From a virus, in the IMG/VR virus record IMGVR_UViG_3300030419_005395, positions 8,467-47,955 of that record: a DNA stretch of 39,489 nt; one strand, 5' to 3'. A program made the translations under genes and the position numbers. Below are positions 6,466 through 37,966 of the stretch, piece by piece (position 1 is the first letter of the stretch; every line of letters begins with the position of its first letter). Under the pieces are notes generated by a model. The model saw only the letters and a list, made by a program, of their open reading frames with translations. It had not been told where the DNA came from and did no database searches.

Positions 6466-7860
6466 TTACTTAGATGTGAACTTAGAAGAAAGAGTAGAGG
6501 ACGAGGTCTCTCCCTCACCATACACTGACTGGTTCAATGCACTTACTTGATCTTTTATTGTATTGAGTGTGTCGGCAACATCTGCAATCTCTATACTAGT
6601 ATTTCCTGCCTTGAATGCGGTGTTGACAGTTAGTTCCTCGACTGTTACTTTACCGGGAACACTAACGGCAGTTTTTCCTTGATCCGGACACACTTGTAGA
6701 ACATGATTCATTGGTTCTTTGGATTGCTTATTTGTAATGGGGTTTGTAACAGTGGTAAACCCAGAAGAACCGATCTTGGGCAAGAAGAATCCAACTATAG
6801 ATGATGAAGATATGGTAAATCCAACTCCAGCGACATAAAGAAGGTTGCTATTCAACTCCTTATTATCGCTCTTCACATAAACTACTTTTGTATTGTCGGT
6901 TTCATGAGAACCCGCACGGTACATGCTAGTACCTCTGAAATATGTAGTTCCTGCATTTGATAATTGTGATACCGCTTTATTTGATGATTGATTGTCGGTA
7001 ACGGCAGTAGTGAGTACAATTCTATGAACATACCCATATATGCTATTATTCCCGGATAATGTGTTGTATGCGTTTAGATAAGTTCTACCATCAATGTTGT
7101 GATATCCCTGACTGTATGCCACATCAATTGGTAATATTTGTCCATTTGCAATATGCCTGCATGGATCATTAGCAATATCATTTCCAAAGTTTGAAAGCAT
7201 TTGTGCCATCTGACCGTCGTCTTCGTTGTCTTCTGATGCAATTATTTCACCACCGATCTGATAACCAATGTAATTTGCAACAATTGCGTTGAAGTCCGGT
7301 GAATTTGGATCCGATGCCATTTGAAGAACAGGTTTTGCAACCCATGTTGGTGTTGCTGGTGCTAGGTTTTGTAGATACCCGCCAGTCGTTCCACTCAAGA
7401 AGTAAACGTCATTACCACCCGCAGATCCAGTTGCGCCCGCAGCAGCATCAACATGTTCCGCGTCGAATAGTCTGTGTGTTGGGTATTTAACTTGTCCATA
7501 TATTACGACATTTGCAACTTCATCGACAACATTAATGTCTTCGACAACACCAACAACTTCAGAAGTCCCTGCACTATTTGCGTTTGCCTTTACATACTTT
7601 CCGCCAGTTGGTTCTGTTGATGCATCATACGCAATCGCATTATATCGAAGAACATCTCCAGCAGTAACACCACCTATCTGAAACGGATATGCACTTGCTC
7701 CAGTAGTGATATATTGATCCCCCTCAAGACCCCCAGAAATACCACTGAGAGGTATGGTCATAACCAATCTAGCACCACCAGCAGCACCTTCACCTGCACT
7801 GACAGTGGTGATGTTTACGTTTCCGTATAAGTTTGAACTGTTACTACATGAATTTCCCAT
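6466..7860 (-). CDS. Tail fibre-like structural protein
   Basis: The protein is 464 aa from an ATG at 7860, with AGAGGA just upstream. It is rich in Gly, Ala, Thr and Val, with beta-strand-like segments such as VVGVVEDINVV, VIYGQVKYPTH and YFLSGTTGGYLQ. The same style of segment (GQVSKPVILG, YFLSPG) recurs in the neighbouring 774-aa fibre, so the two probably share a repeated fibre-shaft module. The C-terminal 60 residues look like a helical trimerisation tail (ADTLNTIKDQVSALNQS). The first ten residues contain one Cys only. It lies between the large Cys-rich adhesins and the 774-aa fibre, in a run of fibre genes. I do not recognise a named family beyond phage tail fibre. Confidence 0.75.
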   Translation of the reverse strand: MGNSCSNSSNLYGNVNITTVSAGEGAAGGARLVMTIPLSGISGGLEGDQYITTGASAYPFQIGGVTAGDVLRYNAIAYDASTEPTGGKYVKANANSAGTSEVVGVVEDINVVDEVANVVIYGQVKYPTHRLFDAEHVDAAAGATGSAGGNDVYFLSGTTGGYLQNLAPATPTWVAKPVLQMASDPNSPDFNAIVANYIGYQIGGEIIASEDNEDDGQMAQMLSNFGNDIANDPCRHIANGQILPIDVAYSQGYHNIDGRTYLNAYNTLSGNNSIYGYVHRIVLTTAVTDNQSSNKAVSQLSNAGTTYFRGTSMYRAGSHETDNTKVVYVKSDNKELNSNLLYVAGVGFTISSSSIVGFFLPKIGSSGFTTVTNPITNKQSKEPMNHVLQVCPDQGKTAVSVPGKVTVEELTVNTAFKAGNTSIEIADVADTLNTIKDQVSALNQSVYGEGETSSSTLSSKFTSK

Positions 7861-11278: not shown

Positions 11279-13216
11279 TTATCCTATAAGAAATTCTGCT
11301 GTAAAGGTAAAGTTCTTTATGTAATCCGTTGTCATGGATTCAAAGTTAATTTCATTTGGAAGTTGAGATGTTACAAGAGTTTCAACACGATCACCCCTTG
11401 TTACTATCTTTTCATCGTTATATGATGGTCGCGTGACTTTTGATGCGGTAACATCTACACCATTAAGAGTAAAGGACAAATCTTCATATGATTGTGGAGA
11501 TACAGTATCAACCGATAATGAAATTTTACTCAAATCACCCGGTGAGGTAAACTTTGCAGTAGATACTGTGTCCTTTTTAGATGATTTAATGCTGCTGGTA
11601 GATGGTTCTTCATACGCCGGAGGTGGACCAAAACCGCCAAGCAGATCCCCCATGCTGAAAGCATATTCACTTTCGGTTGATACTTCATCACCCAAGAAAT
11701 CAGCAGAAAAATCACTTCCGTCTGCTCTAACAACCTCGGTGACAGTTTGTAATGATATCTTTCCAGTCTCTCCTGTTTCGAGATCATCAAATACCTTTGA
11801 TCCTTCTTCTGTTATCAGCGTTCCGATGCTTGCCCGATTTAGTTTTAGTTTATCTAAGTGGACGCCTGCATCTTGGAGATCACTGCCTGATATTTGTTTT
11901 GTTATTCTGACCTGTGGACTAAACATAGTAGATTCGGGGATGTTTGCAAAAAATCCTGCAAAGGGTGTTACATGCACAGTAAACACACTAACAGGAATAT
12001 TAGGACATATAGATGCCCATTTCGCAGCGTCTACCTCGCCGTCAACATAACCATATCCTTCTTGAATAAGAGACAATCCACTACAATAGATCTTACCATT
12101 AGATGCTGTATATGTTCTTATTTGATATTTTGCTTCCTGTCCCGCCGGGGTTGATGAGGACAGTGGAAGGGTTGGTGTTTCTCCAAATTTAGAACCATTT
12201 GGTTGGTACTCAGAAGCAAGGGCTCTGGATTCTTCGTCAACATCACTAAGATTCATCCACACAGCAATAAATCCTGCCCGTGTTTTATTGTTTTTGGATA
12301 TTTGTGCGTTTTTGTAATCGGTGCTTTCATAAGAGATATTTCTATCACCAATAATTCTATCTACCACATCCGGTGTCTCAATCCTACAAGAACAAGGTCC
12401 ACAATCATTTGGAAAATCTGCCATGCACTGACAACTTGGACCGGTTCCCCCAGTAACAGAACCCGCAACCGCTATATGTGCATTAAAGACATACCGCATG
12501 TTTAATTTTCTTGCCATTTCAACACACTTGTGACACTGAGTACAGATACAATCATAAAAATCACCAGAGGCGTATGTTACTCCACTGACAGCATCCTTTG
12601 ATGCATGAGGATAGTAGAGACAACAGTTACCAATTCTGGTCTCGCTCCCCGCCCCGCATATATTTGTTGCGGTTACGGTCCTAGACGTTGAGGTTGAATT
12701 TTTGTCATACTTATCAATAAGATCTTGTTTGGTGGTAAGTGTATATCTAGATCCAGCATTGGAACCAAACAGAGTAGGAAGTACATTGACACACTGATAA
12801 TAAATTCCCTCAGATGTTTTTGCGACGTTTCCTGTTACATCAGAGAATCCTGAAGTCGGTTTTACATTACCATCAAAGTTATCTGATCTCCATCCGTCTT
12901 GTCCCAGAATAACAAACATAGCATCATCCTGAACCCACAGGGGACTGTTGGTTCCTGACAGATCAGCACTGTTTTGTCTATATCTACCAACAACGGAGTT
13001 ATTTGATTTAAATTTCTGGGGTACAGTGGTGGTGAGTCGAATGTCTTCTGGGTTTATTTTTGTTGCATATTGCATTCCAGCAATTGCTAGATTTGCTGCT
13101 TGTGTTGTATTTGCTTCTTCGTTTGCATCAGGAGAATAACCAAGAATAACGGAAAGACCGTTTTGTTCCCTCAGGTCCCGCTGCACAGATAATGCTAGTG
13201 GTTGTGGTTTATTCAT
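11279..13216 (-). CDS. Virion structural protein of the baseplate/fibre region, Cys-rich centre
   Basis: The protein is 645 aa from the ATG at 13216 (MNKPQPLAL). That start has GGAGG 11 bases upstream and follows the previous stop by one base. A GTG at 13243 would add nine residues, but no comparable ribosome binding site was noticed, so I did not use it. Residues roughly 180-290 contain paired cysteines (GNCCLYY, CICTQCHKC, CQC, CGPCSC), which could form a zinc- or disulfide-stabilised knob. The C-terminal 200 residues are Ser/Thr-rich and beta-like, with the repeated phrase SLS/SFTLNGVDVTASKV. The operon position is downstream of gp6, where T4 has genes 7-10. I do not recognise the family. 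Confidence 0.65.
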   Translation of the reverse strand: MNKPQPLALSVQRDLREQNGLSVILGYSPDANEEANTTQAANLAIAGMQYATKINPEDIRLTTTVPQKFKSNNSVVGRYRQNSADLSGTNSPLWVQDDAMFVILGQDGWRSDNFDGNVKPTSGFSDVTGNVAKTSEGIYYQCVNVLPTLFGSNAGSRYTLTTKQDLIDKYDKNSTSTSRTVTATNICGAGSETRIGNCCLYYPHASKDAVSGVTYASGDFYDCICTQCHKCVEMARKLNMRYVFNAHIAVAGSVTGGTGPSCQCMADFPNDCGPCSCRIETPDVVDRIIGDRNISYESTDYKNAQISKNNKTRAGFIAVWMNLSDVDEESRALASEYQPNGSKFGETPTLPLSSSTPAGQEAKYQIRTYTASNGKIYCSGLSLIQEGYGYVDGEVDAAKWASICPNIPVSVFTVHVTPFAGFFANIPESTMFSPQVRITKQISGSDLQDAGVHLDKLKLNRASIGTLITEEGSKVFDDLETGETGKISLQTVTEVVRADGSDFSADFLGDEVSTESEYAFSMGDLLGGFGPPPAYEEPSTSSIKSSKKDTVSTAKFTSPGDLSKISLSVDTVSPQSYEDLSFTLNGVDVTASKVTRPSYNDEKIVTRGDRVETLVTSQLPNEINFESMTTDYIKNFTFTAEFLIG

Positions 13217-13217
13217 A

Positions 13218-14498
13218 TTAGCACGCGCCTCCGTTTGTGTCACCCTGTGCTGTACAACCAGTGAGTCCGAAGTTTGGACTATCCTCTAATGGACACAGAG
13301 TAGTGAATGCACTAATATATATGTCCCGGAAAAACGGTGCCTGGTCTACATCATTTGTAATTCCAGACGACCAGTTGGGGAATGCATATGTTGGCATATT
13401 ATATGTGACATCTATAGACCCGTCACCAACAGTCTTCCACGCATCACCAGCAGTCCATCCGGTAAATCCTCCATATGTGTTGGTGTTTATTCCTAATGAC
13501 TGTGCGGTTGGTCCGTCAAATGTATATCCACTACCCGTAGCACTACCACACCCAAAACAAAGTGCTATGTTTTCGCCGCTTGTAAGTCTATAGGGGAAAT
13601 AGTTTCCAATAACTGGTTTCTCGCATACACCAAACCCACCTTCATTATCTCCCGGTGGAATATAATCACTGGCGACCATTTCATAGAATCCCTTCATTCC
13701 CGCAGGATGAAGAACTTCCTGTAAAGTATTATAATATATTGGGAGACCTGATCCGGGATCTACGTCATCGATGTCTGTTTTTATAACATAAGAATAATCT
13801 TGGAACCAATTTCCATCTCGGAGAACGTGACTATTGAGTACACTCCCTCCCATATTTCCGTAGATAAACTCACTAGAAAATTCTTTGGTATCAAAATAAT
13901 TATAACCGTAGTCTTGACTTTCAGGATCGGTGGATGTTATGTAAGAACTCCACCCAGCAAATCGCCCTGCATTCAATCTTAATATATCTGTTTTGGGATA
14001 ATAGAATATAACATTAGTAGTTGAACCAAACAGAGTTTGAAAGAAATAATTATATGCTTCCTCTGTACTTTTCTTCTGATATAGTCCCAATCTAATATTC
14101 TTTATAAAATTACGAACACCATCGGCATTACCAGACAGGTCATCAATTTGCTCTTCTGGTAGTCCTGTTGCATATGCATAAGCAAAGTTTTTTAAATATT
14201 CTACTGGTGCTGTATCAATATCGACTATTCTTCGTAATCCTATAGAATTAAACGTAGTGGTACTTAATTCATATCCAGATCGAGTATATAACCAGTCGTA
14301 GTAATTTTGAGTAAATCTCACTAAATGGTTACTAGGACTGCTTGTCTCGCTTCGTTCTATTATCCATAAAGGAAATAAATGCTTTATGTCGATTACAGAC
14401 TCAACGGCATCAGTAAGAGCAGGCAACTCTTGACCCAACAATATCATTCTATATTGTGGGTTTACTGATGAATTTCTGATAATTGAACCGTAAAACAT
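13218..14498 (-). CDS. Putative baseplate wedge/tail protein downstream of gp6
   Basis: The protein is 426 aa from an ATG at 14498, starting 12 bases after the gp6 stop. The first 190 residues are helical and Tyr/Phe-rich (FTQNYYDWLYT, VEYLKNFAYAYATGLPEEQ, TEEAYNYFFQTLFG, VIFYYPKTDIL). This resembles the N-terminal part of phage tail proteins that sit beside gp6/gpJ, such as the P2 gpI-like class. The C-terminal half is Gly/Asp/Tyr-rich and beta-like, with Cys in CEKPVIG, CFGCGSATGSG and the last residue. The match to known T4 wedge proteins is positional only, so a gp7- or gp8-equivalent role is an inference. Confidence 0.6.
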   Translation of the reverse strand: MFYGSIIRNSSVNPQYRMILLGQELPALTDAVESVIDIKHLFPLWIIERSETSSPSNHLVRFTQNYYDWLYTRSGYELSTTTFNSIGLRRIVDIDTAPVEYLKNFAYAYATGLPEEQIDDLSGNADGVRNFIKNIRLGLYQKKSTEEAYNYFFQTLFGSTTNVIFYYPKTDILRLNAGRFAGWSSYITSTDPESQDYGYNYFDTKEFSSEFIYGNMGGSVLNSHVLRDGNWFQDYSYVIKTDIDDVDPGSGLPIYYNTLQEVLHPAGMKGFYEMVASDYIPPGDNEGGFGVCEKPVIGNYFPYRLTSGENIALCFGCGSATGSGYTFDGPTAQSLGINTNTYGGFTGWTAGDAWKTVGDGSIDVTYNMPTYAFPNWSSGITNDVDQAPFFRDIYISAFTTLCPLEDSPNFGLTGCTAQGDTNGGAC

Positions 14499-24007: not shown

Positions 24008-25045
24008 CTATTCTACTAGTCGGGTCGTTCCTCGTGGAATGTCTTTACCCTGAAGCATTGCAGAGATTTGACCAATTACCCGTGAAACTATCGTTGGATG
24101 TAATACCTTTATTGTTCTGTTTTCTAGATCTTTTCTGAATATTTCATCGATAGTTGTTAGTTTGGTAATGTTTGAATTTATAGCACCGTCAGTGATGTAG
24201 TTGTAAAGAATAGTAGAAGTAAGTCCACATATATTATCAAAAGAAAACATGTCACTTGTTATTCCCCTAAAGGCACCATCGACATACCATTCGACACCAT
24301 ATGGACTTACTGTTAGATCATCAAGTTCAAATTTTTCGATAGCATCTTTTATTGTTGTTGCTTTTCTAATGGTACTGAAGGTAATTCCTCCGGTATCACA
24401 CAGAGGCCCATGTAAAAAGTTATTACCGGCATGACCAGTAGTGGGTCCATTTATTGGATAACATGTAGTTCCTCCAATTGCTTGCTGAACACATGCTGTG
24501 TTTCCAAACCCACTAATAGGATCCCAAGTATCAGTTACATTATTTTGTCTGAACAAATAAAATTCATCACCAGCAACAAATGTTCCCTTGCTTCTCTTTA
24601 CATCAATTCTTTTTAATAATTTATGATACTTATCTACTACCCCAAAAACATCCAAAGATATACTAGCATCAGCATCAAGATCTCGCTTTACAATAACATC
24701 ACCTACCTGTGCATCAAGTCCTTGTAGTACGAAATAACTGTTACCATTCAGAAAGGTATCAAACATAGTATTTAATTCTTTAGAAGATTTTGGCCATTCA
24801 TTCTGTACATCGATTATATTATTTGCAAAGAGAACAATCCACCACAATTTTGGATCACCATAAAACTTTACAGCAACATCTTCTGGTTTTTCTCCGTCCT
24901 GTACAAGATACTCTTCAAAGTTTTTAGGATCCTCAAATGCTTTCTGGGTAAAAGTGAATCTTCGGAAAATATCTTGAACTTCCAGTTCTGGACCGGAAGG
25001 GAAATCATAATTTATTTTTGACATGTATTGAAAGTAGTCAGACAT
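24008..25045 (-). CDS. 53: Baseplate wedge subunit gp53-like
   Basis: The protein is 345 aa from an ATG at 25045; T4 gp53 is 196 aa. The N-terminal 85 residues match the family: YFQYMSKINYDF, VQDIFRRFTFTQK and GEKPEDVAVKFYGDPKLWWIVLFANNI, written here in two parts (GEKPEDVAVKFYGD, PKLWWIVLFANNI). The LysM-like KFYGD..LWW.VL.AN motif is characteristic. The extra length is a Cys-containing insertion in the middle (FGNTACVQQAIGGTTCYP) and a helical end. In T4, gp53 clamps neighbouring wedges together. It sits between the tube cap and hub genes. Confidence 0.85.
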   Translation of the reverse strand: MSDYFQYMSKINYDFPSGPELEVQDIFRRFTFTQKAFEDPKNFEEYLVQDGEKPEDVAVKFYGDPKLWWIVLFANNIIDVQNEWPKSSKELNTMFDTFLNGNSYFVLQGLDAQVGDVIVKRDLDADASISLDVFGVVDKYHKLLKRIDVKRSKGTFVAGDEFYLFRQNNVTDTWDPISGFGNTACVQQAIGGTTCYPINGPTTGHAGNNFLHGPLCDTGGITFSTIRKATTIKDAIEKFELDDLTVSPYGVEWYVDGAFRGITSDMFSFDNICGLTSTILYNYITDGAINSNITKLTTIDEIFRKDLENRTIKVLHPTIVSRVIGQISAMLQGKDIPRGTTRLVE

Positions 25046-25063
25046 TATTATTCTCCATCACGA

Positions 25064-25840
25064 TCATAGATCGTTCCCTCTTCCGCCCCAGTTCCTTGCT
25101 TGAGACCTGCTCACTAGTTGTCCGGCCTGGGTGCCTTGATTTGTATCAATTCTAACAGCAGGTTCCAGTTCTTGGAAAGATAATGAAATCTGAGTTGCTG
25201 CTGGATAATCTTCTCTTGTAGAATATATTCCATTATCAGCAGTTTTTATACTTGCCTTTGATAGAACACAAACATTTGGACCCATGTCCCATTTATATAC
25301 ACCCGATTGTCCTTGAGCAGTGTCTAGTATTTGAATATTCCATATTGGTGGGTGAACTATTTTAGCACCACCGGAAAACGTAGAAAGGGAAGGATAGGAA
25401 AGAACCTGAAACGATTGTGCTATCTTATTTATCTGATCAGCATCATCAAAGTTTTTAGGAACTAGTGTCCAACTAAACTCGAACTTTCTAAACCCCGCAT
25501 CTTTAAAAGTAGTATCTCTTTCATCCATATCTCTTCTACCAAGAAGAATATCAAAAGGCGCACGGAGTTTATCGATAATAGGCCCACCAAGTAACCATCC
25601 CAACGACGATACACTTGGATCGATCATACCACCCTGTCGTTCCTCTTCAGTGTAATTTATGTTTGCTTCAGCATTTAGGTTGTTAGGTGCAGGTAATTTA
25701 ATATCAGCAATTGACCCAGTAAACGTCCCTGCCCGCAACATTTGTTTGCTTTCATAATGATCACACTGTAAGTTCATCCAATATCGAATATCCCTATCCG
25801 TAGTGTATGACCCGAGAGTTGGAAATCTATAATGTGCCAA
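25064..25840 (-). CDS. Baseplate tail-tube cap protein, gp48/gp54-like
   Basis: The protein is 258 aa from a TTG at 25840. No in-frame ATG is nearby, and GGAG lies 8 bases before the TTG, which supports this start. Motifs include KFEFSWTLVPKNFDDADQIN, IAQSFQVLSYPSLS, HPPIWNIQI and ISLSFQELEPAVRID. These resemble the tube-fold cap proteins that join the hub to the first tube ring (T4 gp48 and gp54). I cannot say which of the two it is. It is the first gene of the long minus-strand run, opposite the divergent gp4 gene. Confidence 0.7.
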   Translation of the reverse strand: MAHYRFPTLGSYTTDRDIRYWMNLQCDHYESKQMLRAGTFTGSIADIKLPAPNNLNAEANINYTEEERQGGMIDPSVSSLGWLLGGPIIDKLRAPFDILLGRRDMDERDTTFKDAGFRKFEFSWTLVPKNFDDADQINKIAQSFQVLSYPSLSTFSGGAKIVHPPIWNIQILDTAQGQSGVYKWDMGPNVCVLSKASIKTADNGIYSTREDYPAATQISLSFQELEPAVRIDTNQGTQAGQLVSRSQARNWGGRGNDL

Positions 25841-26348: not shown

Positions 26349-26891
26349 ATGCCAAATCAATCCATAGAAGAATTCAGGAAAAATGTACTAGGTCGCTTGG
26401 GACTCTCAAGACCAACAAGGTATGTTGTACAAATATCCCCTCCAAGGGCATCAACAATTACCATACATCAACCAGAATCGGTGACATTACCGTCCAGACA
26501 GTTTGATACAATAGAAGACAATATGTACGGGCCCGTCAGACAAGTACCCATAAGAAACAAATATGATAGTTCTGTGGTTATGACCTTTCCTGTATCAAAA
26601 GACTGGTCGGAACGATCTATACTAGAAGGATGGATGGATAATATCGTCTGGCCTGCTGACAACACTTCAACATATGAAGATGTCAATCTTGGCGTTTTAA
26701 AAATTACATGTGAAGACAGCAGTGGAAATCCTAGTGCAATCTTTACTCTTAATGAAGTATATCCATTTTCAATTATGCCTATCGAGATGGGATATGGTAT
26801 GGTTAACACCTATACCAGACTTCAAGTTCAATTTCAATACAGATCATATGACCTAGAACTACCCGGCACCGGATACCGAACACCAATATAA
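26349..26891 (+). CDS. Tail tube-fold protein (gp19/gp54 family)
   Basis: The protein is 180 aa from an ATG preceded by AGAGGAAACTT; T4 tail tube gp19 is 163 aa. The N-terminal helix (NVLGRLGLSRPTRYVVQISP), the VTLPSRQFDTIEDNMYGPVR loop and the tail YTRLQVQFQYRSYDL fit the contractile-tail tube fold seen in marine T4-like phages. It lies between gp4 and the gp26-like gene. In many T4-like phages a second tube-like protein (gp54) initiates the tube, so this one could be the tube itself or the initiator. Confidence 0.75.
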   Translation: MPNQSIEEFRKNVLGRLGLSRPTRYVVQISPPRASTITIHQPESVTLPSRQFDTIEDNMYGPVRQVPIRNKYDSSVVMTFPVSKDWSERSILEGWMDNIVWPADNTSTYEDVNLGVLKITCEDSSGNPSAIFTLNEVYPFSIMPIEMGYGMVNTYTRLQVQFQYRSYDLELPGTGYRTPI

Positions 26892-26906: not shown

Positions 26907-27620
26907 ATGAGTTCATTATCAACCATTTTGAAAAGTAGTGTCCCCAGATACACAATAAAGCAACCGTCTACAAACAAACCTATAGAATTTAGACCATTTC
27001 TAGTAAAAGAAGAAAAGGTATTATTGCAAGCACAAGAAACTGCTGGAGGAGAAACCTCCATGTTGGTTGCAATTAAAGGCGTAATTGAGTCGTGTTTCAG
27101 CATATCAAATGCAGGGAAACTTCCTATATTCGACATCGAATATATGTTTATTAATTTGCGTGCAAAGTCGGTAGGAGAAGTAGTGAACCCAACTATAATG
27201 TGTCCATATACTGGAGAAGAGGTTTGTATTGTAATTAACCTAAGCGATATAAAGGTAAATACGCATCCAAAACACACAAACAAAATTGATTTAGCAGAAA
27301 ACGTATTACTAGAAATGTCATATCCGTCCATAAACATTCTTGCTGAACGGGATATCGATTATGACGATCCTCTTAGTTTCTATGATTTAATAGTCGATTG
27401 TATCAAGACAATAGAAACAGAAGAAGAAACTATAAACACACAAGAACTATCAAGAAACGAAGTACAACAATTTGTTGATAATATGACAAAGGATCAGTTC
27501 GATAAGGTCTTAGACTTTTTCTTAACTGCACCAAAACTCGAACATACTGTTGAATACGAAACATCAGACGGGGAAACAAGAGAGGTGGTGTTGAGTGGAC
27601 TCTCGGATTTTTTCGCATAG
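26907..27620 (+). CDS. 26: gp26-like baseplate/tail assembly protein
   Basis: The protein is 237 aa from an ATG with AAGGA upstream; T4 gp26 is 208 aa. It matches the T4_baseplate family: PRYTIKQPSTNKPIEFRPFL then VKEEKVLLQAQE, YMFINLRAKSVGE, a CPYTGEE segment, and the closing DFFLTAPKLEHTVEY and VVLSGLSDFF. In other phages, proteins at this position are tape-measure chaperones. The end of the gene carries a slippery heptamer and a downstream hairpin, so some ribosomes may read into the next frame and make a 311-aa fusion. Confidence 0.85.
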   Translation: MSSLSTILKSSVPRYTIKQPSTNKPIEFRPFLVKEEKVLLQAQETAGGETSMLVAIKGVIESCFSISNAGKLPIFDIEYMFINLRAKSVGEVVNPTIMCPYTGEEVCIVINLSDIKVNTHPKHTNKIDLAENVLLEMSYPSINILAERDIDYDDPLSFYDLIVDCIKTIETEEETINTQELSRNEVQQFVDNMTKDQFDKVLDFFLTAPKLEHTVEYETSDGETREVVLSGLSDFFA

Positions 27621-27647
27621 GACTCTGCCACGTTGGGTTGGTGGAGT
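27608..27647 (+). promoter_or_regulatory. Predicted programmed -1 ribosomal frameshift signal
   Basis: The last codons of the gp26-like gene are GAT TTT TTC GCA TAG. Positions 27608-27614 read T TTT TTC, a canonical X-XXY-YYZ slippery heptamer in the correct phase. After a seven-base spacer, 27622-27625 plus 27629-27631 can pair with 27641-27647 (ACTC/GAGT and CAC/GTG, three-base bulge, nine-base loop). The -1 frame is open straight into the 67-aa reading frame. This is inferred from sequence only. Confidence 0.6.
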
Positions 27648-27841
27648 ACTACCGATTAAATTTCCAATTAATGCAACATCATAAGTATTCTTTGTCAGAT
27701 CTAGAATCTATGATTCCGTGGGAAAGAGACATCTATTTGGCACTGCTAATAGAATACATAGAAATAGAAAATGAAAAAATCCAGTTAGCAGAAATAGAAC
27801 GACAGAGATCCTCAAGACCAAACAATACCCCATTCAGGTAG
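27638..27841 (+). CDS. gp51-like hub-assembly/tape-measure chaperone extension, probably made by -1 frameshift
   Basis: Taken alone the frame starts at a TTG and gives 67 aa, but the coding character begins earlier. The same frame is open from the slippery site, adding RIGLCHVG before LVEYYRLNFQLMQHHKYSLS. No convincing ribosome binding site precedes the TTG, and the first ATG falls inside the domain. The motif HHKYSLSDLESMIPWERDIY is typical of the T-part of tail chaperones (lambda gpGT type) and of gp51-like proteins of marine T4-like phages. The likely product is a 311-aa fusion with the gp26-like protein. The short tail is helical and Glu/Gln/Arg-rich. Confidence 0.65.
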   Translation: MVEYYRLNFQLMQHHKYSLSDLESMIPWERDIYLALLIEYIEIENEKIQLAEIERQRSSRPNNTPFR

Positions 27842-27847
27842 TAACAT

Positions 27848-29239
27848 ATGAAAGATAAAAATAAAAAACTTGATTCTATAAAAAAGAACACACCCAAGTT
27901 GAATTATTTTTTAAAGAATGTACAGGTGTCTCCTAAAAAAACATCAATAGAGATTCCCAACGTAATAAAACCGAACAAGGATGCTTCAGCAGATATTCTG
28001 CCAGAAAAAACACCTGAACCCAAAATAATCAATAAAGCAGACTATCATCACTCTATGTTTAAAAAAACACTGGACGACATCCAGTCTAAAGTGAATTCTT
28101 TATTAATGAAAGACGATAAAGTCAACACAACGCATAAAAATGTGCAGTGGGGATCCATAAACAACAAAACCACCACCACTAACAACAATATTTCGCCAAT
28201 ATATGAGAATGTTAATAAAGAAAGTTTTTTGCCGGTAAGGGATAAACTGAAAACCATAACGAACAACACAAAAAAGACAATAATACGTCACAAAGAAAAG
28301 GTAATACCCGAAACTACTGTCATTAACAACGAAAATACCAAGGTAATACCCGAAACTACTGTCATTAACAACGAAAATACCAAGGTAATACCCGAAAAAA
28401 CGGTAATCAACAACGAAAATACCAAGGTAGTAGAGACCCCCGTCAAAAATAAAGAAAATGTAGTGGTTCGGGACAATAAAAAGAAAACGATACCACAAAA
28501 AGTAGAAAACGATTCACCAGTAAACCATAAAATAGAAAATTCGATTAGCAATACACTAAATCGAATCGAAAAAATCAACAAAAACACGAATTCCAGTGTA
28601 AAACTACACGGAATCGTCGATAATTCCAAAGATAGCATCAAAAACGTCTTGAAAAAGAGTGTTTTGCTACACAATCAAGTAAATAAGAACGCAATCAGCA
28701 ACACAAATTATGAAAATGTGTCTAAAATTGTTAATTCAAAGAATGTAAAATCAATAAATCCGAATATTTCTACCGTATTGACGAAAGAACTTAAAATTCC
28801 ATCATTGGCTGAAGGTGGATTTGTTGATAATCCTACTATTGCACAAATTGGTGATGCAAAATTACCTAGCGGCAAAAAAGAAGGAGAAATGGTAATTGCT
28901 CCTTCTAAATTACCCGAGATACTTGCAGAAACTAAAGTTCTGGAGAAGACAGAGAAGAAGACGGCAGAAAAAATAGGTGAAATAAAAAATAGTCCAACTA
29001 AAGGACTATCAGAAATGGCAAATGAATCGTTAATGACAAACGCTGATAGAAGAATAACACAGCAAACAAACAATAATGCAACTAACGGACAAGACGCTCC
29101 ATCTGCTCCCTTAGTAATTAACCAAGCAGGTACACAGACATCATCTGCACCACCCACATCATCTCAAGGCGGACAAAAACTAGGAATGAACGATATGATG
29201 AACGTATCACTTCCACGATGGCGTTCAAGGATGGGATAA
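27848..29239 (+). CDS. Putative tail tape-measure-like protein, disordered and Asn/Lys-rich
   Basis: The protein is 463 aa from an ATG at 27848. It directly follows the chaperone genes, the usual place for a tape measure. About residue 318 it carries LAEGGFVDNPTIAQIGDA followed by EGEMVIAPSKLPEIL, close to the AEGG-x-PT-x-IGE..PE.V.P motif near the end of many tape measures. The first 300 residues are Asn/Lys/Thr-rich, contain three copies of a 14-residue unit and look disordered, which is unusual for a normally helical protein. T4 gp29 is 590 aa, so a shorter tail is possible. A minor structural protein is the alternative. Confidence 0.55.
   Translation: MKDKNKKLDSIKKNTPKLNYFLKNVQVSPKKTSIEIPNVIKPNKDASADILPEKTPEPKIINKADYHHSMFKKTLDDIQSKVNSLLMKDDKVNTTHKNVQWGSINNKTTTTNNNISPIYENVNKESFLPVRDKLKTITNNTKKTIIRHKEKVIPETTVINNENTKVIPETTVINNENTKVIPEKTVINNENTKVVETPVKNKENVVVRDNKKKTIPQKVENDSPVNHKIENSISNTLNRIEKINKNTNSSVKLHGIVDNSKDSIKNVLKKSVLLHNQVNKNAISNTNYENVSKIVNSKNVKSINPNISTVLTKELKIPSLAEGGFVDNPTIAQIGDAKLPSGKKEGEMVIAPSKLPEILAETKVLEKTEKKTAEKIGEIKNSPTKGLSEMANESLMTNADRRITQQTNNNATNGQDAPSAPLVINQAGTQTSSAPPTSSQGGQKLGMNDMMNVSLPRWRSRMG
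28298..28423 (+). repeat. Three tandem 42-bp repeats
   Basis: Units at 28298-28339, 28340-28381 and 28382-28423 each encode KVIPE(T/K)TVINNENT. The first two are identical in DNA sequence, and the third differs at a few bases. A decayed fourth copy follows. The unit length is a multiple of three, so copy number can change without breaking the frame. Confidence 0.95.
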
Positions 29240-30642: not shown

Positions 30643-32079
30643 ATGGCAGATACCAACAATAACATTACAATCGACATTAGTGGAAACACTGCGTCAATGG
30701 CAACTGACTACGGTCATGGCGGTCCCGGTGGATTCACTACCGCACATGTGCCTGTTTCAAAATTAGTATGGGGTGACAAAGATACGAGCAAGAGAGTAAC
30801 TCTCAGCGATCCCTTCCCCGTCCAAATGGCAGGACAAACCGGACCTCTCGAATTCACTGGTAAGGTTTCCGGTCAGACTAACGCAAACATCGCAATCACC
30901 AACTACATAGGAAAAGTTCCAGGCGGAACCACCTATGGACAGACACACTTCATCGCTGTTGCCGGATCTACCAACGGACTTTCTCCTGTGGGTATTTCTG
31001 GGGGTGTTGAAGGTGTTTATGGTGGTGTTCCTGTAACCATAACAGGAGATGTTAGAATTGCTTTCTCAACTGGACAAGATGCAATTGATCAGTTCGAGGC
31101 ACTTGGCACTGATACCTATACAAATGGTGCATCAGGCGGAATCATGATACAAGGAAAGGGACTTGGTTTTACTGCCTCCGTGGCAGGAGAACAGTTCCCC
31201 GGATATGGATTCGGTATTCCCGTTGCAATTACTGCTGGACGAAGACTGAGTTCAGACACAGATACAGTTAATGTTGTCGGTACAATCAACTCTACTGGTG
31301 GTCGCCAGTTAGGACCACTAACCGATTCGGTTTCCGTTTACGGGTATGATGGCCTAAACTCTGTTCATACTATTCTCCGCGCCAGTAACGACGGCACTAC
31401 CGCAGGATTCTCTGGCGATGCCCTCAAGGTTGCCATTGTAAATGCTGCCGAAGGAATTACCTTCAGTGTCGCAGTCAATACAGTAACCGGAGTTACTAAC
31501 GCCAGTGAACCACCACTTCGGGTTCAGGGGTATGCAGGTTCAGTGGGCGATCCTATCACCGTCAAGGGACAAAACGATGGTGCCTTAGAAATCGTGTCTA
31601 CTGCTGGGTTAAGCACCACGGTGTCAAACACAGTAGCAATCAACGACACCAACATTGTAGACTCACTGGAAAGTTCGTCCAAACCTCTCATCAGCAACCT
31701 AGCATCGATGAAAGCAAATACCAGTCCGATTTCTGCGATCAAGACTGCGATCGAGGGTGGTAAACTACGGGCCCAGATCACAGGAATCACCCGACCTACC
31801 GATCTTCGGTCTGGTAGCAAGAGTGTCACCACAAATGCACAACCACTTAATAGCAATCTTGAACTTAGAGTTGGTGTTACTGTGAAGGCATCTCCGTCAA
31901 ACAGAAACAATATCCTTGTAGGAAATCGTGGATTAGCAAGTAATACAGAAAGCGGGTATATACTAGAACCCGGAGAGTCTATATTCCTAGAGATCAATAA
32001 CATAAACAAGATATATGTGAGGACATCACCGGGTGATCGTTCAGGCGAAACACACACTGTCAACTATATCGGAAGTTAA
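30643..32079 (+). CDS. Beta-rich virion structural protein
   Basis: The protein is 478 aa from an ATG with AGGGG 7 bases upstream. It is low in charge, has only Met as a sulfur residue, and is rich in Gly, Thr, Val and Ser, with repeated beta segments (GVPVTITGDVRIAF, TVNVVGTINSTG, DPITVKGQNDGALEIV). The last 70 residues (ELRVGVTVKASPSNRNNILV then GNRGLASNTESGYILEPGES, ending YVRTSPGD and YIGS) match a small C-terminal domain I have seen at the ends of other phage virion proteins. The gene uses more G/C-ending codons than its neighbours, which may reflect high expression. A head fibre, decoration or tail appendage are all possible. Confidence 0.7.
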   Translation: MADTNNNITIDISGNTASMATDYGHGGPGGFTTAHVPVSKLVWGDKDTSKRVTLSDPFPVQMAGQTGPLEFTGKVSGQTNANIAITNYIGKVPGGTTYGQTHFIAVAGSTNGLSPVGISGGVEGVYGGVPVTITGDVRIAFSTGQDAIDQFEALGTDTYTNGASGGIMIQGKGLGFTASVAGEQFPGYGFGIPVAITAGRRLSSDTDTVNVVGTINSTGGRQLGPLTDSVSVYGYDGLNSVHTILRASNDGTTAGFSGDALKVAIVNAAEGITFSVAVNTVTGVTNASEPPLRVQGYAGSVGDPITVKGQNDGALEIVSTAGLSTTVSNTVAINDTNIVDSLESSSKPLISNLASMKANTSPISAIKTAIEGGKLRAQITGITRPTDLRSGSKSVTTNAQPLNSNLELRVGVTVKASPSNRNNILVGNRGLASNTESGYILEPGESIFLEINNINKIYVRTSPGDRSGETHTVNYIGS

Positions 32080-36061: not shown

Positions 36062-37966
36062 CTACTCCGTTTGTGTATACATGATGCCGGTGATGGGACT
36101 CCACCACGGATCATTAGGACCGAATACGTTATCGTTGAATCCGTCCCGAGTGTCAGAATCAAACTGCAACTCGTTGGGACCATACCATACCCACGGTTCT
36201 CCTGCATCTGGTTTCAGGAACAGAGGAATCGTGCGATCCCAATCGTTCCAACAATCCTCGAACTTGACGTTTTTGAATCGTGGTTGTCCTGCAAATTCAC
36301 CATCCCGAATGAGACACCACGGACCTTCCGTGTTCTGTGAACCATCTTCATTGAAACGATCATACGTCACTGTCGTGTGTAGATTGCCGGGTTGACCATC
36401 ATCAGTTGGTTTGCCGTGGAACATACAACCCCGGAAGAGATTGTTCTGTCCCGGTCCACACCATCGGAAGATGAGTGCAGAGATGTTGCATCGTGGTTGA
36501 TCGAGTCCGCCAGTGTTGGACAACTCGACGTTGATCCATGCACTACCACGAATGCCGATACCGTTGCCTTCACCCGGACATGCGTGGACACCCTGTTGAC
36601 GGCAGGAGTGATTACCAAACACATCTCGCATGATACGGTTCTCCAACATGTATGGGAAACCACCATTGATCTGAATGTAGTCAATGTGGCATCCGTTTGG
36701 ATTCTCGGTGCCTGCATTATGGTTTGTAATCATGATGCTAAGTGCCATCATAATCCAGTGCTTCTCAAGAACATCACAGTGAATGTGATCCATGATCATG
36801 TTACGCATGATGATACCTGCGTTACCTTCTGCCTGATACTGCTGTGTGCAGTCGGTGTAATACTGATATCCATAGTGTGGTTGTGAAGATCGAACATAGT
36901 TACTCTTCCACCACTCGTCTGCATCACCACTGATCGTACAGTTGTCGTACCATCGAATAGTTTTACCCGGAGTCATCCAAGTTGATGACGCACTCACGAA
37001 CTCAATGTCCTTGAAGTGAACCATAGAACGACCCACCGACAGACTGTCACCGTCGAGGTTGCTGTTCGTAAGAACAACATCACCTCTACCATATCCCGGT
37101 GCTGGCGAAACACTGAGGAATCTCGGTGCATCTTCTTCTCGAAGTGTTGAACATGCCCACCATGCGGTATCGCAATATTCACCACCATCAAGAACATATG
37201 TGCCGGGAAGCATATAGATTCTTCTGCCCTGAACATCCATGTATGGACCATCATCTCCATGTGCATGACGCAACGCAGGCATGAAGTTGGCAAATGGTTT
37301 CTTCATTGTGCCGTCTGCGGTAGCATCGTCACCATCTGGACTCATGTAGATTGGTTCGCCCACGTTCCATCGTCCAGTATTGTTGGAGAACAGATTCACA
37401 CCCACCCACTGGATTCCCGGTCTTGCACCGTAATTTTCACCCAAGATATCTTCAATGTTCTGGTCGAGTACGAGACTAGGACCATCAACGGGAAATATCT
37501 CAGCAGTCACAGTGATCTTTGTATCGGGATCTTTGCGAGTGTCGAGTGAGAACCAATACTCTAGTTCTCCAGTGCGAGGATTCATGGTCTGTTCCCTGAC
37601 CGTGACTACCTCTGGTTCGTGGGGGACGGTTTGACCCCACACGGCGAGTAACTCGCCCAATTCTCTTCCGTCTACTCCTTGATTCCACCTCTCGATGAGA
37701 ACTCCAAGGTCTTGCCCGTCTACGATCTCATCGGCATTCCAATCTCCGATGTACCCTTCACGGGTGATCGTGTATTCAACACGATCCACTTCTTCTAAGT
37801 GATAAGCCACCACTCCCATGTCGAAAACCCCCGTAACATACTGTTGTGGAACAACATCGAAGTATGCAATCGGGGGCTCTTCTTCAGGAGTATACGCATT
37901 TTGAAAATCAGCCTGACATAATATAGACGACAATCCACTCAAAGCAATCGCTGCGTTAAGTAACAT
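36062..37966 (-). CDS. Secreted beta-helix protein with dockerin-like repeats
   Basis: The protein is 634 aa from an ATG with GGAAGG 6 bases upstream. The hydrophobic N-terminus (LLNAAIALSGLSSILCQA) looks like a signal peptide but lacks a basic start and has no proper lipobox. Residues 75-111 are a compact dockerin-like pair (GDWNADEIVDGQDLGVLIER then VDGRELGELLAVWG), preceded by a strand similar to that in the adjacent protein (DRVEYTIT against ERVEWAYT). From about residue 215 comes a parallel beta-helix of the DUF1565/pectate-lyase kind, opening GTMKKPFANFMPAL. A polysaccharide-binding or degrading role is plausible. It heads the secreted-protein pair. Confidence 0.85.
   Translation of the reverse strand: MLLNAAIALSGLSSILCQADFQNAYTPEEEPPIAYFDVVPQQYVTGVFDMGVVAYHLEEVDRVEYTITREGYIGDWNADEIVDGQDLGVLIERWNQGVDGRELGELLAVWGQTVPHEPEVVTVREQTMNPRTGELEYWFSLDTRKDPDTKITVTAEIFPVDGPSLVLDQNIEDILGENYGARPGIQWVGVNLFSNNTGRWNVGEPIYMSPDGDDATADGTMKKPFANFMPALRHAHGDDGPYMDVQGRRIYMLPGTYVLDGGEYCDTAWWACSTLREEDAPRFLSVSPAPGYGRGDVVLTNSNLDGDSLSVGRSMVHFKDIEFVSASSTWMTPGKTIRWYDNCTISGDADEWWKSNYVRSSQPHYGYQYYTDCTQQYQAEGNAGIIMRNMIMDHIHCDVLEKHWIMMALSIMITNHNAGTENPNGCHIDYIQINGGFPYMLENRIMRDVFGNHSCRQQGVHACPGEGNGIGIRGSAWINVELSNTGGLDQPRCNISALIFRWCGPGQNNLFRGCMFHGKPTDDGQPGNLHTTVTYDRFNEDGSQNTEGPWCLIRDGEFAGQPRFKNVKFEDCWNDWDRTIPLFLKPDAGEPWVWYGPNELQFDSDTRDGFNDNVFGPNDPWWSPITGIMYTQTE

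Follow-up and report, generated by a model that had tools for sequence, protein, structure and literature searches.

A short gp51-like reading frame overlapping the end of a gp26-like gene raises the question of whether a virus encodes two proteins here, or one protein in two lengths. The locus lies in the window, the whole stretch of 39,489 nucleotides analyzed here, which is part of a 47,955-base IMG/VR virus record. On the + strand, the gp26-like gene (26907..27620) encodes in the zero frame a 237-aa protein assigned as TAC-N, the short tail assembly chaperone. Its 3' end reads GAT TTT TTC GCA TAG. The heptamer T TTT TTC (27608-27614, +) is in X XXY YYZ phase with this gene, as a sequence-only reading of the locus had claimed, and the TAG stop of the short form (27618-27620, +) stands one codon past it. 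The -1 frame, which the same reading had described as open into the gp51-like frame, is indeed open from the heptamer to the TAG at 27839-27841. Entered at CGC (27614-27616), this frame encodes the gp51-like domain, TAC-C (27614..27841, +), of 75 residues plus TAG. A slip would come after residue 236, the junction anticipated earlier, and the predicted product of 236 zero-frame and 75 -1-frame residues is a 311-aa fusion. On sequence and comparative grounds, we consider it highly probable that a -1 slip on T TTT TTC lets this locus produce a single tail assembly chaperone in both a short and an extended form.

Both parts matched the T4 gp26/gp51 family (PF12322, PHROG 150, and PHROG 634) and were collinear with T4-type gp51. 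The gp26-like protein matched Pfam PF12322 (T4_baseplate, 4.7e-56) and PHROG 150 (3e-58, profile positions 7-232 of 282). The -1 product matched PHROG 634 (9e-24), annotated as "baseplate hub assembly catalyst," as well as PHROG 150 positions 231-276, resuming where the zero frame stops. In the T4-type phage slur04, gp51 matched PHROG 634 and PHROG 150 over 13-280 in a single frame, and gp26 matched PHROG 150 over 14-235 only. Because of this difference in coverage, T4-type gp51 is taken to be the unsplit long form, collinear with the predicted fusion, and gp26 the short form. The earlier suggestion that gp26 and gp51 of T4 correspond to the lambda G/GT pair is supported, with qualifications. 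T4-like gp26 (TAC-N) and gp51 (TAC-NC) are of the same two protein families as the window products, a short form and a long form with the C-terminal domain, and the PHROG 150 collinearity supports this short/long correspondence. However, the long form of T4 itself and of T4-type genomes is a gene of its own rather than a product of frameshifting, as seen for gp51 in slur04, whereas the long form in the window would arise by the predicted -1 frameshift.

The TAC-N and TAC-C parts were modelled separately. The AlphaFold2 model of the gp26-like protein reached a pLDDT of 91.5. A Foldseek search of this model against the PDB gave the HK97 tail assembly chaperone 2OB9 as the highest-probability match among those listed (prob 0.69 over 58 columns, E 0.88, TMq 0.20), which is not significant; the HK97 protein is also smaller, at 107 aa versus 237 aa. 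A PDB sequence search with the gp26 alignment returned no relevant match.

The gp51-like product could instead be a separate small protein, made from TTG 27638 in the window or from an ATG just past the stop in relatives, by reinitiation or translational coupling, with the T-run being incidental. Most records annotate it as a separate gene, yet we regard this explanation as unlikely. The only listed ORF of the -1 frame begins at this TTG (27638-27640, +), the only near start codon. A tblastn search of the -1 product against phage records returned 448 matches at an E cutoff of 1e-5 and 528 at 1e-2. From the 528, 60 records were sampled along the ranking, and in each of them the match started at query residue 1, which is the slip site and lies 10 residues ahead of the TTG. 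No purine-rich Shine-Dalgarno-like stretch was found 5-12 bases upstream of TTG 27638, in agreement with the earlier remark that this start lacks a good ribosome binding site. The window TTG falls in an invariant column of the TAC-C alignment, and Leu stands at this position in 78 of 79 distinct junctions. Because it is aligned with this invariant Leu of TAC-C, the TTG is most likely an internal codon rather than a start.

The residues ahead of this codon point the same way. In eleven distinct junctions, the window included, -1 codons 1-10 contain neither ATG nor GTG nor TTG, and Arg, His, and other residues are conserved there (FFR-I---H), ahead of any start. Two relatives, L001 and L002, have no start ahead of -1 codons 16 and 20. 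In the TAC-C model, the first helix spans residues 2-8, also ahead of the TTG, at moderate confidence (pLDDT 79.5). The -1 frame encodes a conserved C-terminal domain that continues from the slip site without a start of its own. Many relatives do carry an ATG at -1 codon 5 or 8, where separate initiation could contribute to expression; even so, the Shine-Dalgarno-like GAGGG of the relatives, ~9 nt ahead of the heptamer, is too far from the ATG (~24 nt or more) to start it. Vibrio phage D492 (L085, 3160-3180) is without a slippery heptamer, and its gp26 stop overlaps a possible ATG (TAATG), which suggests coupling in place of a frameshift in that phage.

The conservation of the heptamer was surveyed in the 80 nearest metagenomic relatives; with the window included, 79 of 81 junctions were distinct. 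All 80 relatives have an in-phase slippery heptamer ahead of the stop (TTTTTTC in 75, TTTTTTT in 3, and TTTTTTA in 2). Among the 79 distinct junctions, which are related sequences and whose counts are not independent events, the numbers were 74, 3, and 2, such that every one carries a slippery T6-7 heptamer. Elsewhere in these genes, T-ending codons and TTT for Phe are not obligatory. By this comparison, T TTT TTC/T/A at the junctions exceeds chance. An in-phase heptamer was also present in the isolate phages P-SSM2, phiM12, Ah1, Vibrio D485, and phiW-14, and in HTVC008M, KVP40, S-PM2, S-WAM1, and S-SZBM1. Conservation of the heptamer and of the frame relation in related marine phages had been proposed as a check, and both were kept in the 80 metagenomic relatives and in the marine isolates HTVC008M, P-SSM2, and S-PM2. 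In Synechococcus phage S-SCSM1 (L089, MK867354.2, 3199-3230), an insertion of ~11 nt just past the gp26 stop closes the -1 frame, and the gp51-like domain sits in another frame. This insertion is either a sequencing error or a change to a different mechanism. Separately, the gp51-like -1-frame domain is present but unannotated in Aeromonas phage Ah1 (L084, 3217-3384) and in S-WAM1 (L090, 1513-1704).

The pattern of variation around the heptamer bears directly on whether the joined protein is made. Before the heptamer, variation is highest at the third position of zero-frame codons; past the overlap with the stop, it is highest at the third position of -1 codons. The first post-slip -1 codon encodes Arg in 76 of 79 junctions (CGC 52, CGG 16, CGT 3, CGA 3, and AGA 2), counts that again come from related sequences and are not independent events. 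The final zero-frame residue, whose codon overlaps that of this Arg, varies among Ala, Gly, Glu, Val, and Asp. L001 and L002 carry Leu (TTA) in place of the zero-frame Phe, retain the -1 Arg as AGA, and still have a slippery heptamer. At the slip site, constraint leaves the zero frame and acts on the -1 frame. Retention of the Arg while the zero frame varies, together with the change in L001 and L002, would be difficult to account for if no joined protein were produced. Homology from the slip site, heptamer conservation, and this switch of frame all support the central claim of the sequence-only reading, and make it very likely that a programmed -1 frameshift joins the gp26-like and gp51-like domains.

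Signals that might stimulate the slip were examined on both sides of the heptamer. The earlier reading had placed a bulged hairpin seven bases downstream. A stem is present ~7 nt after the heptamer (27621..27651, +; ACTC...GAGT with CCAC/GTGG), but its folding energy is only marginally better than that of shuffled sequences (MFE -13.8 kcal/mol, z = -1.81), and its stimulatory role is putative. The hairpin alone is weak evidence, because 10 of 200 shuffles fold equally well. The stem is not conserved in L002, a member of the same clade.

Relatives of the window have other elements. In most of them, LEG codons give GAGGG or GAAGGG ~7-10 nt ahead of the heptamer. The best anti-Shine-Dalgarno energy averaged -6.2 kcal/mol over the 79 junctions versus -4.5 kcal/mol for synonymous controls, and was stronger than the controls in 63 of 79. 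For the window itself, a Shine-Dalgarno-like stimulator at the usual distance was rejected (-3.0 kcal/mol, against -2.4 kcal/mol for synonymous controls); there, GAGAGGTGG at 27580-27588 stands ~20 nt from the heptamer, farther than the spacing in relatives. Downstream, a 5-bp hairpin in cyanophage-like relatives had 51 double-changed cells, compared with 17.3 in shuffles, and none of 500 shuffles reached that number; sliding the hairpin gave no more than 18. This count used all 79 junctions; an initial count on 30 palindrome-picked sequences was set aside as biased. A general conserved hairpin that includes the window was also rejected, with all five pairs found in only 35 of 79 junctions. 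The window is without both of the relatives' elements and has a different stem instead. The upstream Shine-Dalgarno-like element and the covarying downstream hairpin of the cyanophage-like relatives are possible additions to the known scheme.

These elements also bear on whether slippage occurs in the ribosome or in RNA polymerase. Transcriptional slippage on the T-run would likewise yield a fusion mRNA, and a homopolymer run, extended to T8 in HTVC008M and L051, would suit it. We consider it very improbable: in nearly all relatives the run stops at T6, its phase to the zero frame is fixed, and the covarying hairpin and Shine-Dalgarno-like element around the relatives' site fit ribosomal signals. 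A homopolymer sequencing or assembly error splitting one continuous gene, suggested by the position of the split at a T-run, is refuted by the same stop and frame relation in 80 of 80 nearest metagenomic contigs and in independently sequenced isolates, leaving it a negligible probability.

With ribosomal -1 frameshifting as the preferred explanation, the gene order gives the likely context of its products. The tail tube (gp19-like) gene lies directly upstream (26349..26891, +; PHROG 45 tail tube, 2.7e-22), and a candidate tape measure gene encoding 463 aa lies directly downstream (27848..29239, +). The site thus falls between tail tube and tape measure genes, although the tape measure assignment comes from a weak PHROG 15478 match (0.0011) and a position comparable to that of the annotated putative tape measure of HTVC008M. 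The order tail tube, gp26, gp51, tape measure is also found in HTVC008M, where one small gene separates gp51 from the putative tape measure. The order of tube, chaperone, and tape measure genes is the standard setting of G/GT chaperones. Most ribosomes would read the gp26-like gene to the TAG and produce TAC-N (237 aa). A presumed minority would move back by one base on T TTT TTC, with both Phe tRNAs re-pairing on UUU UUU, bypass the TAG, and read the -1 frame through the gp51-like domain to give TAC-NC (311 aa). If they act as lambda gpG/gpGT do, both forms may coat their presumed client, the tape measure protein encoded by the next gene, recruit tail tube subunits, and then leave.

The lambda system resembles the window in having a -1 frameshift heptamer close to where the short gene ends, with the tail tube protein gene on one side and the tape measure gene on the other. 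The lambda slip site is G GGA AAG, compared with T TTT TTC in the window. Lambda is a siphovirus, whereas the window represents a contractile-tailed T4-like phage, and the likeness considered here is one of layout; lambda gpG/gpGT biology is summarized in PMC5009743. In phage Adele (Vandenendeviridae/Andersonviridae, PMC12846349), a conserved poly-T motif ahead of the tape measure gene is likewise the site of a -1 frameshift in the chaperone gene. Unlike in the window, the motif is GTTTTT, and the phage families are different; this comparison, too, concerns layout.

That T4 genes 26 and 51 form a short/long chaperone pair is already published, and frameshifting is already reported for this phage group. 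The abstract of the study concerned reportedly names genes 26 and 51 and says that several T4-like groups do use frameshifting. Tail assembly chaperones of T4-like phages were identified by Vladimirov, Gautam and Davidson (2022, Virology 566:9-15), in a paper whose title names a mechanism different from frameshifting. Two later papers cite this work: PMC10885494 on the occurrence, in some T4-like phages, of a short gene together with a fused long one, and PMC12846349 on poly-T slip sites within the TAC-N genes of T4-like phages. In PMC3004832, T4 gp51 is a required protein that does not occur in the particle and has no function assigned, and gp26 and gp51 are called hub assembly chaperones. 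The window contributes one more member, from a deep-branching marine relative and on sequence evidence of unusual clarity, such that the published short/long scheme of T4-like phages reaches a deep marine branch. Many marine-phage genes annotated as "baseplate hub assembly catalyst" probably have no start of their own and encode the end of a frameshift product. As a tentative scheme, held with somewhat more doubt than belief, the frameshift of the marine T4-like branch may be tuned by the Shine-Dalgarno-like GAGGG/GAAGGG and the covarying hairpin, the window's deep clade may have swapped in a different, larger stem, and other lineages may have replaced frameshifting by gene duplication (T4) or by an overlapping start (Vibrio D492).

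Several further features of the window were recorded. Four regions (6466-7860, 11279-13243, 30643-32079, and 36062-37966) hold large ORFs of 464-654 aa with no PHROG match at E 1e-3. On the minus strand, a gp53-like protein (24008-25045) has a family match over only the first 93 of 345 residues, and a gp48-like tail tube cap (25064-25840) is short (258 aa) and matches only the C-terminal part of its profile. Within the candidate tape measure gene, 28300-28430 contains three near-identical in-frame repeats (KVIPETTVINNENT, ~42 nt), and the equivalent gene of L001 has its own different repeats (NPAPTIQNHI).
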